Positions 36 to 5,061 of a stretch of DNA of 5,121 nucleotides are shown here, one piece after another (the first letter of the stretch is position 1; each line of letters starts with the position of its first letter). Made by a program: the position numbers and the translations under genes. A model generated the notes under the pieces. That model was not told the DNA's origin, searched no databases, and saw only the letters and a list, made by a program, of their open reading frames with translations. Location: contig JACRJM010000016.1 of assembly GCA_016219965.1 (NCBI GenBank), forward strand, positions 1-5,121. Direction: 5' to 3'. The stretch is from Candidatus Schekmanbacteria bacterium (GTDB lineage Bacteria > Schekmanbacteria > GWA2-38-11 > J061).

Positions 36-674
36 AGTACCGGTTCATAGACCGGTATAGCTCCGAGTTTAGGGTGGAGAGGATGTGTAAGGTGTTAGGA
101 GTGTCACGGAGCGGTTATTATGGATGGAGGAAGAGGCCTCAGAGGAGGCGACAGAGGGAGAACGATCAGGTGCTGATGGAGATACAGGAATCGCATAAGA
201 GGAGTAAGGAGATCTATGGGAGCCCAAGGATTACCGAGGACCTGCGTGCCAAGGGCATCAGGTGCGGCAAGAACCGTGTGGCCAGGCTCATGAGGAGTAA
301 CGGCATAGTAGCCAGGAGCAGACGCAAGTTTAAGGCAACGACCAATTCAAAGCACAATCTGCCTGTGGCGGAGAATCTGCTTGAGCAGAAGTTTCATACA
401 GATAGACCTAATAAGATCTGGGCCTCTGACATAACCTACATTCCGACGCTGGAGGGATGGCTGTACGTGGTAGTAATCATGGATATCTTCTCCCGCCAGG
501 TAGTGGGCTGGTCAATGAGCGATCGTCTGACAGCGGATTTTGTTATCAGGGCACTCTCTCAAGCTATAATAGGCCGTAGGCCTTCATCGGGTCTCATATT
601 TCATTCAGACAGAGGGGTTCAGTATGCCTGTAATGCCTTTAAAGACGTTCTGAGCCAGTACGGGTTCAGGCATG
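1..674 (+). mobile_element. IS3-family insertion sequence, right end deleted
   Basis: The end of orfA and most of orfB are present, but the sequence leaves transposase homology at about 672-675 and enters SBBP-repeat DNA. No right terminal inverted repeat is seen at the junction, and no target-site duplication can be tested because the left end is outside the window. An IS normally inserts with both ends intact, so this junction looks like a later deletion or recombination rather than an insertion boundary. Confidence 0.8.
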
Positions 675-694: not shown

Positions 695-896
695 GTTTGA
701 TGCAAGTGGTGTAAAGCAGTGGACAAGACAAATAGGTACGAGTAGTCATGATGTTGCTGAAGGCATAACGACGGACAAATCGGGTAATATTTATATTACT
801 GGGACTACAGAAGGTGGCCTTGATGGAAATACGTATTTGGGTAGATATGACATTTTTATTGTGAAGTATGATTTCTTAGGGGAAAAGCAGTGAACC
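675..896 (+). pseudogene. SBBP beta-propeller repeat protein, internal fragment 1
   Basis: The frame encodes two SBBP-type repeat units. The first has DVFVIKFDASGVKQWTRQIG and then GNIYITGTTEGGLDGNT; the next has YDIFIVKYDFLGEKQ. The phrases [DF]-hydrophobic-VKYD, KQWT, and GNIYxTGxT followed by GGLDGNT are the hallmark of this secreted or surface repeat family (Pfam SBBP, predicted seven-bladed propeller). Such genes usually encode several hundred to more than a thousand residues with a signal peptide. Here only about 74 residues remain, with neither start nor end: the left edge is fused to the IS3 remnant and the right edge ends in TGA at 891-893, where the repeat expects Trp (TGG). Homology ends within a few bases of that stop. 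An ATG at 672 opens the frame but lies on the junction and has no convincing ribosome binding site. Exact role unknown; family assignment is firm. Confidence 0.85.
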
Positions 897-950
897 ACCC
901 ATAACCAAATTGACCCTTTTTATCTTATGGTACATCTAACTTATTGTAAA

Positions 951-1706
951 TTATAATTTTCTCAATGAATCCATGATTTTTTCATATTTGTTCAAGTCAA
1001 CATCTATGTAGTCGTTTTCTATTATATAAGCAAGTTCAAAGAAGATTTTATTAAGTCGAGCATCTATTGATTCCTTTATTAATTTTTTATTTGAAACAAG
1101 TATGATATTATTCGAGAAGGATTCAAAAAAGATGTATTCTTTGTTGTTCCTTCGGGTAATATTACGAGATATTGCCCGGCATGTTTTTGAAAGATTTTTA
1201 ATTGCTTTCTTGAACTCAGGAGAATCATGATCAGAGCTAATAGTAAAAAGTTTTGGAAATTTTAGAGTAAATTCACTATTTTTTTCGGTGTATTGATTTT
1301 CTTTACAGTCATCCGTTTCACATAGTTTAATTTTTATTTTTTCTGCTGATGGTTCATCAACAAAAAATGGAATAAGGTACTCTCCTGAATAAAAATCCAA
1401 CACTTGACTTCTTCTATTACAAACCCCAACAAAAAATGGAATCCCTAAACTTTTCAGATATTCAGTCTTGCCCGTTATATAATAAGATTTTCTGTTACTT
1501 TTTATTTGAATTGTAAAAGATTCTTTAGGGACAAGGAATTTGGTTTTTCCATTAGGGATAATATCAAATATAACACAAAAAAAGTCAGAGCCTAAATCAT
1601 CTGCAATAGTTGACGGCTGTGATATAAATGCAAAATTAGATAATATGTATTTGGCAAGATTTTCACTTTGCCAGCCTTTTCTAAAACTGGCGAGATGTTT
1701 CTTCAT
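951..1706 (-). CDS. 251-aa protein with DUF4365/PD-(D/E)XK nuclease-like N-terminal domain
   Basis: Not recognised as a named gene. The first 110 residues fit a restriction-endonuclease-like core: E15 in the first helix (WQSENLAKYIL), D41 in DDLGSDFFC, then a strand with Q67-x-K69 (FTIQIKSN) and a following alpha/beta segment (YLKSLGIPFFVGVCNR). The spacing E ... D ... QxK matches DUF4365-type domains, where Gln replaces the usual Glu/Asp. The C-terminal half (about 130-251) is rich in Lys, Asn, Ile and Phe and has no familiar motif. No signal peptide or membrane segment is evident, so it is probably cytoplasmic. The start ATG at 1706 is supported by GAGG (1717-1714) seven bases upstream; an ATG at 1710 is in another frame. 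The coding sequence is much more AT-rich than the neighbouring toxin-antitoxin genes, suggesting acquisition. A defence or DNA-processing role is inference. Confidence 0.65.
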   Translation of the reverse strand: MKKHLASFRKGWQSENLAKYILSNFAFISQPSTIADDLGSDFFCVIFDIIPNGKTKFLVPKESFTIQIKSNRKSYYITGKTEYLKSLGIPFFVGVCNRRSQVLDFYSGEYLIPFFVDEPSAEKIKIKLCETDDCKENQYTEKNSEFTLKFPKLFTISSDHDSPEFKKAIKNLSKTCRAISRNITRRNNKEYIFFESFSNNIILVSNKKLIKESIDARLNKIFFELAYIIENDYIDVDLNKYEKIMDSLRKL

Positions 1707-1793
1707 TCATGTGCCTCTATTTATAATATTGAAAATCAGCTGCCTAAGGTAGTTCCGTTGCTGAAGGTCAACTGTACTGAGTTGATAGGCCAT
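1707..1793 (-). CDS. possible 28-aa ORF coupled to the 251-aa gene
   Basis: An ATG (1793-1791) overlaps the stop codon of the upstream decayed gene as TAATG. The frame runs 28 codons (MAYQLSTVDLQQRNYLRQLI and on) to TGA at 1709-1707, whose last base directly precedes the ATG of the 251-aa gene (TGAATG). AAAGGG lies five bases before the ATG as a possible ribosome binding site. The GAGG used by the next gene is inside its last codons. The exact joining of both ends argues for a translated coupling peptide, but the ORF is short, resembles nothing known, and could be chance. Confidence 0.3.
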   Translation of the reverse strand: MAYQLSTVDLQQRNYLRQLIFNIINRGT

Positions 1794-2343
1794 TATTTCC
1801 CTTTATTAGGAAGTTTTTTCTCACCAAATTCATATGAACCGATTTCAACTAATTCAACTATGTTACCTTTTTGATCTGTAATCACGGCTGTAGCATCAAA
1901 CGAGAATATTTTTATTAGTTGGTCGTGAGTTTCTTTTGATACTTTAATGCCAGACCATATCTAGATATCAAAAAGTCTTAAATAACGCAGTGCCCACTCT
2001 TCAATTATGTCAAGCCGTTTCTGTTTTGAATTCTTTAAAATGTCGTCCATACACAAGATTGGGACCCTTATTGCGCTGCTCTCTTTATCAAATCTAATTG
2101 GATTAAATTGGCAATTTTCTCTTGCTTCAAATTCATCTAATGACGCTTTTTTACAATTGTATTTTGTAGTTGAACTTCCCATTGAAGAATCATCCAGTCG
2201 AGATGACTAATTTGTTGGGGAGTTTGAAGAAAATTAATAATTTCTTCGCGTTGATTCGCCTCAGGTTCCAATCCATTAGCTATCGCAGGAAAAAAATAAA
2301 TCAAGAAGCTGAAAAATAAAAATAAGGTCTTATGCAATTTCAT
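1793..2343 (-). pseudogene. decayed secreted protein gene (signal peptide, frameshift, in-frame amber)
   Basis: Reading left from ATG 2343 gives a classic Sec signal peptide: MKLHK, a Leu/Phe-rich core (residues 6-18), and a probable cleavage site PAIA|NG after residue 22. The frame closes at 2137. Moving by one base within the six-A run (plus strand 2147-2152) gives VKKASLDEFEA and continues to RLFDI, which stops at TAG 1963-1961. Past the amber the same frame stays open for 55 more codons (IWSGIKVSKETHDQL ... LPNKGK) to TAA 1795-1793. Repaired, the protein would be about 183 aa, exported and mature at about 160 aa. AAAGGA just upstream of 2343 is a fair ribosome binding site. The family was not recognised. 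The gene precedes the 251-aa gene on the same strand and probably shared an operon with it. Confidence 0.6.
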
Positions 2344-2489
2344 TATTCCTTTCTTGTTGCCTAACTATTAAGTAAGTTGCAAACACCTTTCACTTTCTGA
2401 CATCCTATTTAGTAATTCCTCAATCCCGTTTTATTCAAAAATCTGCAGTATTGTACATCACATGCTGAAATGTTGCAATTGATTGCTCC

Positions 2490-2928: not shown

Positions 2929-3129
2929 TCATGCAACTTTGTGCTTTGCAATTAGCTTACGGATTGCTGGAACCAGTTCTGTAGGTACTTCCATAACCGT
3001 CTGACCCGGTGTTTCAAATGCTGCTTCGTCTTCGGCTACCGCTTCTTCCTCTGACTGCGGTTCATAATGAGATAGTACCCTTTTTACACGTTCTAAGTCC
3101 CATCCTGGTGGAAATTTATTCTGTCTCAT
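2929..3129 (-). CDS. putative antitoxin, 66 aa, partner of the upstream DUF4258-like toxin
   Basis: Small acidic protein. MRQNKFPPGWDLERVKRVLS opens it, followed by an acidic middle (EEEAVAEDEAAFE, residues about 27-39) and a C-terminal TVMEVPTELVPAIRKLIAKH helix. Proteins beginning NKFPPGWDxERV are commonly found beside RelE/BrnT-type toxins and are regarded as their antitoxins; I place it there from general resemblance and context, not from a named motif. The ATG at 3129-3127 overlaps the toxin stop (ATGA). It is preceded by a strong AAGGAGG (3144-3138) eight bases away, inside the toxin gene, much better than the toxin's own site. That would favour antitoxin excess. Confidence 0.7.
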   Translation of the reverse strand: MRQNKFPPGWDLERVKRVLSHYEPQSEEEAVAEDEAAFETPGQTVMEVPTELVPAIRKLIAKHKVA

Positions 3130-3410
3130 TTTTGTTTCCTCCTTCTGCGACGGCGATATGCGATTAAAGGCTTGCCACGCAGTTCATAGGCTGTTATAAC
3201 AAAGACACTGTTCGGTTCCTGGTCAGGAACATATATTACCCTGAGATAACGTCCATTCAAAGTACGTCCAATAGTAATCCTCGATCCTTCTCTGCCTGGG
3301 CGGTCTTCGCCGGGATTTGACAAAACTTCCTCAACTTCCATCTCCTTAATATTATGACCGGAGATGTGGGGCAAATCTGTCTCTGGATCAACATAATACC
3401 GGACATTCAC
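3126..3410 (-). CDS. putative toxin of a type II module, 94 aa, DUF4258/RelE-like
   Basis: The protein has an N-terminal strand (VRYYVDPETDLPHISGHNI), a helix with EMEVEEVLSNPGEDRPGREG, then strands SRITIGRTLNGRYLRVIYVP and SVFVITAYELRGKPL, ending in a run of six Arg. The order H...I..VE.VL..P...G...G.T..GR.L.V.Y.......V.T.YE resembles DUF4258/RelE-fold proteins, many of which are ribonuclease toxins. The start is GTG at 3410-3408; AGGA (3425-3422) lies 11 bases upstream, a long and weak spacing. The preceding in-frame codons (KDDI) could belong to a longer family form, but no in-frame ATG precedes the upstream stop. The toxin comes first and overlaps the antitoxin by four bases. Family name uncertain; toxin role inferred from size and partner. 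Confidence 0.7.
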   Translation of the reverse strand: MNVRYYVDPETDLPHISGHNIKEMEVEEVLSNPGEDRPGREGSRITIGRTLNGRYLRVIYVPDQEPNSVFVITAYELRGKPLIAYRRRRRRKQK

Positions 3411-4102: not shown

Positions 4103-4357
4103 TTAGCCCATGAGTTTATCATAATCAGCGTGACTTCCGATCCAAAACCAGAGTAATCCTTCTGTAACTTCGATTGCCAGTGCTCTATAGTGAAGACCTA
4201 CACGGACGGATCGGTAATTGCCAATCTTTTTGAAATGAAGTGATGGGTATAACGGGTCAGCTTTTAAAAGTTCGAAATTTCTGTCCGCCAGTTCCTGCAC
4301 ATTTGCCGGAAGTTGCCGATAGCAGGCCCAGAAATCAGGAGAAGCAAAGTGCTTCAA
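4103..4357 (-). CDS. RelE/HigB-like toxin, 84 aa
   Basis: Type II toxin-antitoxin toxin with the RelE/ParE fold. Features: N-terminal helix pair (SPDFWACYRQLPANVQELA), a basic central strand region (YPSLHFKKIGNYRSVRVGLH then YRALAIE), and the closing motif WFWIGSHADYDKL, characteristic of a common RelE-like family in which these toxins act as mRNA interferases. Length matches the family (about 80-95 aa). The start is TTG at 4357-4355 and overlaps the antitoxin stop as TTGA. AAGGAG lies only two bases before the TTG, so initiation probably depends on the terminating antitoxin ribosome. No alternative ATG exists before the conserved region. Catalytic residues cannot be fixed from one sequence, but nothing expected is clearly missing. 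Confidence 0.85.
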   Translation of the reverse strand: MKHFASPDFWACYRQLPANVQELADRNFELLKADPLYPSLHFKKIGNYRSVRVGLHYRALAIEVTEGLLWFWIGSHADYDKLMG

Positions 4358-4554
4358 AGCTCCTTTGTCCTTCCGGCTTTGTGCGCCGCAAGGGCTTCTT
4401 CTGCCAGTTTGTCAAGCTTTCCAGCCTGAACATCTTCTTCAATCTGCTGGTCCCACGCATTTGCTTCGTATTCGAGGAACCAGTTCCGGAAAACTTCGAA
4501 GTCAGCACGGTTAAGTTTTTTGATTTCATGTTCTAGTTGCTCAACTCTTGTCAT
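4354..4554 (-). CDS. antitoxin of the RelE-like module, 66 aa
   Basis: Small acidic antitoxin: an N-terminal helix (VEQLEHEIKKLNRADFEVFR), NWFLEYEANAWDQQIEEDVQ in the middle, and a C-terminal helix rich in Ala and Lys (AGKLDKLAEEALAAHKAGRT) that would wrap the toxin. Proteins with the pattern WDxQIExDxxAGKLDxLAEEAL are the standard partners of this RelE-like toxin group. Two in-frame ATGs exist, 4560 and 4554. GGAGG (4566-4562) is only one base from the first but seven from the second, so I choose 4554 (MTRVEQ). It precedes and overlaps the toxin by four bases. Usually such antitoxins also repress their promoter, here at 4642-4670, although no DNA-binding motif is obvious in this protein. Confidence 0.85.
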   Translation of the reverse strand: MTRVEQLEHEIKKLNRADFEVFRNWFLEYEANAWDQQIEEDVQAGKLDKLAEEALAAHKAGRTKEL

Positions 4555-4641
4555 ATTCATCCCTCCGAATACATCTTTCTGAATAAGAACTTGAGAGGAT
4601 TACACCATATTCTTTCTTAAGGAAATTTATTTTCTGAAGTT

Positions 4642-4694: not shown

Positions 4695-4767
4695 TTTGCC
4701 AGTATTCTATCCTATGTACATCGTGACCTCCCTTTGATCAATGGTCTGCAAAGAATCCTAAGCTCAC
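4690..4767 (-). pseudogene. DUF5615 PIN-like toxin remnant
   Basis: A GTG (4767-4765) overlapping the DUF433 stop by one base (TAGTG) opens the frame MSLGFFADH, followed by TGA at 4740-4738. DUF5615 proteins begin (M)xLRFFADHCVP, so the stop sits at or near the expected Cys codon. Past it the same frame reads SKGGHDVHRIEYWQS, matching the next conserved stretch (a GHDV-type motif), and closes at TAA 4692-4690. About a dozen residues are missing between the blocks and the C-terminal two thirds are gone. This is a dead copy of the PIN-like nuclease partner that usually follows DUF433. Confidence 0.65.
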
Positions 4768-4931
4768 TAAACAGCAACCTCAAATTCTGATAAGTCACGT
4801 GCATAATCAAGGCATGCAATAATCTGTTCCTTTATCAGGTCTGGAAACTCCGCTATAATCTCTTCGACAGTATTTCCTGACGCTAAATATCCAAGGATAA
4901 GACTTACCTTCCGATTCCGCGGGGACACCAT
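4767..4931 (-). pseudogene. DUF433 antitoxin-like protein, 5' end replaced by RAYT terminus
   Basis: The frame KVSLILGYLASGNTVEEIIA, EFPDLIKEQIIACLDYARDL and SEFEVAV is the C-terminal half of DUF433, whose family pattern is GTRxxVxxILxxLAxGxxxEEIxxxFPxLxxExIxAxLxYA. Full proteins are about 75-80 aa and begin with a PVIxGTR block, which is missing. At 4913-4919 the sequence passes into ATTCCG, the RAYT terminus. An ATG supplied by that element at 4931 keeps the frame open (54 codons in all), but no ribosome binding site precedes it, so expression is doubtful. DUF433 proteins are usually antitoxins or DNA-binding partners of DUF5615, whose remnant follows at once. Confidence 0.75.
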
Positions 4932-5061
4932 ACATAATTATATTAATTCGTTATCTTTGGTCCAGGTTTTCTCTTTCTCGAAGAACGGTTCAATTGTATC
5001 TCAAGATTCTTAATGAACGCCTCACTTCCCAAAGGTCTTCCGGTTCTTTCATGACAACTGA
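4914..5061 (-). mobile_element. RAYT/IS200-like element, second truncated copy
   Basis: The edge ATTCCGCGGGGACACC (4914-4929) and the adjoining sequence repeat the copy at 2611-2756 in the same orientation. By eye, the 119 bases from the transposase stop to AACTGA differ at nine positions (about 92% identical). Homology stops at 5061, before the rest of the transposase and without the GGGCGCTGTC edge. The left edge lies exactly where DUF433 homology ends. Confidence 0.65.
4943..5061 (-). pseudogene. REP-associated (Y1) transposase, C-terminal 39 residues
   Basis: The minus-strand frame SCHERTGRPLGSEAFIKNLE, IQLNRSSRKRKPGPKITN and TAA 4945-4943 is the RAYT C-terminus. It retains KPGPK, the usual tail, where the other copy has KPVPK. 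Upstream of SCHERTG (5061) the frame leaves homology and soon meets stops. It is non-functional debris. Confidence 0.75.

Follow-up and report, generated by a model that had tools for sequence, protein, structure and literature searches.

Gene layout and surroundings

The window, i.e., the whole stretch of DNA analysed (5,121 nt), corresponds to positions 1-5121 of contig 16 in a genome of 3.58 Mb (18 contigs, 98% complete) from a phylum represented by only four genomes in the collection. Three reading frames follow one another on its minus strand, namely (i) a broken gene for a secreted protein (2343-1793), (ii) an ORF of 28 codons (1793-1707), and (iii) an ORF of 251 codons (1706-951). The last of these, which runs from an ATG at 1706 to a TAA at 951-953 and is matched by its relatives over its whole length, encodes a stand-alone nuclease of predicted PD-(D/E)XK type (DREN/DUF4365-like) and carries a Shine-Dalgarno-like AGAGG seven bases 5' of its ATG. 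The 28-codon ORF adjoins it with zero spacing and in the same frame, TGA abutting ATG (...GGCACATGA followed by ATGAAG), while the ATG of the 28-codon ORF shares one base with the TAA closing a 30-codon open stretch (AATAATGGCC); the ORF positions and the TAATG and TGAATG junctions were found as given in the preliminary description. The upstream gene (1793..2343, minus strand), which would encode a short secreted protein, is decayed, as had also been proposed. Three-frame translation revealed a signal-peptide-like stretch at the start of 2343..2137. The coding then shifts frame at least once, continuing at 2182..1961, and is interrupted by an in-frame stop before it resumes at 1885..1793.

Both genes are held within an A+T-rich block (894..2470; 31.6% G+C versus 48% and 42% in the flanks), which is bracketed by SBBP/DUF5122 matches at 672-893 and 2470-2583 on the plus strand, opposite to both genes. 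These beta-propeller remnants look as if one gene had been split by insertion or rearrangement. An IS3-type transposase (HTH_21 and rve), incomplete at its end, lies at 2-694 on the plus strand, and repeated fragments occur in the surroundings of the window copy. A direct repeat of 142 nt, 89% identical, is found at 2615-2756 and 4920-5061; its minus strand reads ...ERTGRPLGS..., which we take to resemble REP-associated tyrosine transposases at their C-terminus, and its translation had no match in Pfam. Small toxin-antitoxin-like genes occupy 2929-3410, 4103-4560 and 4767-4931 of the minus strand, namely a DUF4258/BrnT-like gene with a partner ORF, a ParE-like gene with a partner ORF, and a DUF433 gene. 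The scan for attC sites found none in the window, and no integron integrase scored above the TIGR02249 cut-off in the genome.

A sparse family of solitary genes in bacteria and archaea

A scan of genome contigs with the whole window protein as query returned no relatives because most of the peptide patterns lay in variable parts of the protein. With the conserved core as query, the same type of scan retrieved four full-length relatives, from metagenome-assembled genomes (MAGs) of Acidobacteria (two), Nanoarchaeota and Bathyarchaeota, and a profile search added L021, a full-length member from one further bacterium, and L022, a broken copy. With the window protein, the full-length members number six. 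The relatives share 29-36% identity with the window protein over its length and are longer, i.e., 285-300 aa versus 251 aa. Alignment of the six sequences revealed 38 invariant columns, among them R9, G11, W12, E15, P31, D36, D37, G39, S40, D41, Q67, K69 and S70. As such, the residues E15, D41 and Q67xK69, already singled out in the preliminary description, are not only present but invariant in six homologues. The first two belong to codons 1-42 (1581..1706, minus strand), which cover a first helix with RxGWxxE (E15) and a loop and strand with DDLGSDFF (D41, codon 41 at 1584-1586), whereas the QxK motif (Q67, K69) sits in a strand reading TIQIKSN (1494..1514, minus strand), delimited by the invariant columns and by alignment to a DUF4365 profile.

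No model in Pfam, NCBIfam, PADLOC or PHROGs recognises the family: the window protein gave chance-level matches only, and the four relatives scanned against Pfam gave none. Among the library matches, PcF, elongation factor P and the "toxin" PHROG 18811 (E 0.019) were weak and judged to be due to chance. The family is rare, occurring in 1 of 396, 1 of 256 and 3 of 386 genomes with the starting genome counted in each, and was found on no plasmid, phage or viral contig.

The relatives are solitary genes in differing settings. L021 lies 105 nt downstream of a type IIG restriction-methylase gene, with a DUF3800 gene next, and L003 has a type IIG gene about 350 nt downstream, the adjacency to type IIG genes thus resting on these two loci. 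The contig of L003 also carries genes read as ribosomal protein S8e and transcription factor B, which indicates that this relative is truly archaeal. L005 is an integron gene cassette: its stop codon directly abuts an attC site (1108-1165, fold z -3.8) and a second attC follows the next gene (2050-2128, fold z -3.9), for a chance expectation of 0.05 per contig. Just 5' of the gene, positions 97-224 present attC-type pairing but with a long loop and a fold energy that is not significant. In this cassette array (1108-2128), the nuclease is followed by a cassette of 285 aa of unknown nature and by a Ppl-like PHP/ATPase cassette, this next-but-one cassette matching the PADLOC model Ppl. The contig, 4.5 kb in length, comes from a MAG and was binned as Bathyarchaeota, an assignment in which contigs of this kind can be misplaced; published work describes archaeal MAGs that carry integrons, as well as the transfer of these to bacteria (PMC9668308). 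The settings of L002 and L004 are not recognisably defence-like, so that defence-rich or integron settings concern three of the five relatives. In the broken copy L022, only the start of a family member is left (55 codons, 280-447, minus strand), suggesting that copies of the family are often lost.

Predicted fold and relationship to DREN domains

Two AlphaFold models were considered, one for the window protein (mean pLDDT 63.5), the other for the L005 relative (71.8). Both exhibit the succession helix, three strands, helix and strand, and a PD-(D/E)XK fold is predicted for both proteins. When ranked against solved structures, both models are led by SPARDA chains from several species (Z 8.9 and 8.8), which fill the top six rows and align over their DREN domain, although a Z near 8-9 is weak by itself and the confidence of the models only moderate. 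Next come Hjc, DpnI and I-Ssp6803I, all of them PD-(D/E)XK enzymes, and the fold class stays nearly uniform further down. The viral structure library gave nothing decisive, a DUF4365 protein of Leptospira phage LE1 appearing at rank 9.

At the sequence level, PF14280 (DUF4365) matched neither the window protein nor the four relatives at E up to 1. By profile-profile comparison with hhalign, using 11 DUF4365 domains gathered from other genomes, the family scored 34.3 (P 1.5e-4, probability 51%), against a mean of 12.2 and a maximum of 22.1 for 100 column-shuffled controls. In this alignment, D41 and QxK fall on the invariant columns of DUF4365, of which there are just three, Q67 and K69 facing the invariant Q51 and K53 of that profile. 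With D...QxK in register, the family appears distantly homologous to DUF4365/DREN. In NbaSPARDA, the catalytic residues of DREN are D41, Q60 and K62, and activity is abolished by D41A and Q60A and impaired by K62A (PMC12205087); in TmuRE, the predicted active site is Q62/K64 (PMC10810196). These D/Q/K residues indicate that the right positions had been picked from the window sequence at the outset, and the assignment to a DUF4365/PD-(D/E)XK nuclease made there agrees with the predicted fold, DREN/DUF4365 effector domains being the nearest solved structures.

Compared with the DREN of SPARDA (NbaSPARDA, TmuRE-Ago), the window family shows the same order of PD-(D/E)XK elements, with the catalytic D at 41 in both and the Q/K pair at 60/62 there and 67/69 here. 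In SPARDA, however, the nuclease is fused to APAZ and adjoined by a short Argonaute gene, whereas the family has neither: no known domain follows the nuclease core in the window protein, and no Argonaute-like ORF was recognised among those read in the window or beside the relatives. Unlike DREN, the family further possesses a C-terminal domain of its own together with the highly conserved DDLGSDFFC and RxGWxxE. The Hjc/RecU resolvases and the homing endonuclease I-Ssp6803I have the PD-(D/E)XK core in common with the family, but are weaker structural matches, lack the C-terminal domain and occur in different genomic settings. DpnI is likewise a solitary gene in which a PD-(D/E)XK core precedes a C-terminal domain; no sequence relation to the family was found, and the C-terminal half of the family has yielded no recognisable DNA reader.

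Since the full-length relatives share a C-terminal domain behind the core, the unfamiliar C-terminal half remarked upon in the preliminary description is a feature of the family rather than noise; it is real, though not a peculiarity of this protein. The matches of this domain to CorA, atlastin and others concern helical hairpins only and were not taken as homology. In the window copy, the C-terminal part (about residues 186-251; 954..1151, minus strand) is some 40 residues short of the relatives by alignment and is modelled with low confidence (pLDDT below 50 at residues 187-220). The family profile extends beyond the stop only by crossing a TAA and a TAG.

Function of the family and competing readings

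The family is real, uncatalogued and made of stand-alone proteins related to DREN that probably cut DNA or RNA. The reading preferred here, with a probability of roughly 0.55, is that the window protein belongs to a stand-alone, metal-dependent, DREN-related PD-(D/E)XK family which has reached a few scattered hosts by horizontal transfer and whose task is to defend them from foreign nucleic acid. Weighing against it are the absence of the family from plasmid, phage and viral contigs, the settings of L002 and L004 and the shortness of the window copy relative to all relatives. Mechanistically, Mg2+ would be bound by E15, D41 and Q67, and K69 would assist the cut, by analogy with D41, Q60 and K62 of the NbaSPARDA DREN. 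The C-terminal domain would stand in for the APAZ/Argonaute part and might act either in sensing the trigger or in an assembly that turns the nuclease on. Nucleic-acid cutting and the gating of the nuclease by its C-terminal domain are inferred, and a role of the family in defence is probable in view of the active site, the patchy transfer and the neighbouring genes.

For the window copy alone, and compatibly with this explanation of the family, it is well possible, if short of an even chance, that the gene is a dead fragment, i.e., a once-active member brought in by a mobile segment and now degenerating together with its neighbour. The absence of about 40 C-terminal residues, together with the position of the gene in an A+T-rich insert amid transposon debris, means that this copy may be inactive. 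The stops beyond its end, the broken adjoining gene, the obviously broken 55-codon copy of L022 in another genome and the transposon remnants throughout the contig point the same way, whereas the 251 codons remain open, all invariant core residues are intact, a ribosome-binding site is present and the third-position composition is coding-like. The window gene may be a truncated family member in partial decay.

Regarding the enzyme itself, it is rather unlikely that the family corresponds to restriction-type enzymes, either stand-alone and recognising a sequence or a modification, like DpnI, or acting as the cutting partner of an adjoining methyltransferase. DpnI does rank soon after the SPARDA chains in the structural comparison (Z 6.6 and 6.2) and type IIG genes adjoin two relatives; nonetheless, the SPARDA DREN outscores DpnI in both models, four of the six members have no methylase neighbour and nothing in the C-terminal half was recognised as a DNA-reader domain. 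Besides, type IIG enzymes as a rule have a nuclease domain of their own and need no partner. A DNA-repair or Holliday-junction enzyme of the Hjc/RecU kind, rather than a defence gene, is improbable: structures of Hjc and RecU match with Z of 4-7, but less well than DREN, they have no counterpart of the C-terminal domain, and the very patchy spread and the integron cassette ill suit a housekeeping function.

The 28-codon ORF (1707..1793, minus strand) is most likely no gene but the leader region of the nuclease, to judge from the relatives, its composition and its folding. No peptide resembling it was found 5' of the gene of any relative, its third-position G+C is 0.45 versus 0.23 for the nuclease gene, and the region folds no better than shuffled sequences. 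From simulated stops, the chance of an ATG ORF this long at a stop is about 2.8%, and the window counts 37 ATG ORFs of at least 28 aa versus about 24 in base-shuffled copies; the ORF is at most weakly unusual in length. As it lies in the frame of the nuclease, TGAATG is merely the nuclease ATG placed right after an in-frame stop, and since the conserved N-termini of the relatives start at that ATG, the peptide is no lost N-terminus. In all likelihood, the peptide is thus no partner of the nuclease and no lost part of it, the ORF is probably a chance reading frame and its apparent coupling to the nuclease gene is most likely fortuitous. That the 28-aa peptide controls the nuclease by translational coupling in a toxin-antitoxin-like pair, with or without the secreted protein, is highly improbable: zero spacing, the shared frame and an AAGGG 5' of its ATG speak for it, but no relative is preceded by such a peptide, its composition is not coding-like and the conserved N-termini start at the nuclease ATG.

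The secreted protein fares no better as a partner. No counterpart of it was seen among the ORFs beside the relatives, and its middle piece had no match in 97 other genomes. The secreted-protein/peptide/nuclease cassette put forward in the preliminary description, and with it any conserved block of the three, is rejected, as neither neighbour was seen beside any relative. Two candidate attC sites, a decayed one under the 28-codon ORF (GCCTA...TAGGC) and one via GTTAGGC just 5' of the secreted-protein ORF, were likewise rejected, since neither folded better than its shuffled versions and the scan for attC was blank.

Returning to the preferred reading of a DREN-related family in defence, DREN nucleases are familiar from work on SPARDA, of which they form the effector arm and in which they stay silent until an Argonaute filament assembles them. 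A bolder version, offered only tentatively, is that of a self-contained immune nuclease in which its own C-terminal domain replaces the Argonaute sensor and which has crossed between bacteria and archaea, in part as a cassette of integrons. If so, a stand-alone relative with a second domain of its own would reveal how a DREN-type nuclease is controlled without Argonaute, and with this family the defence genes found on integrons and restriction islands, bacterial and archaeal alike, gain a candidate that is not yet catalogued.
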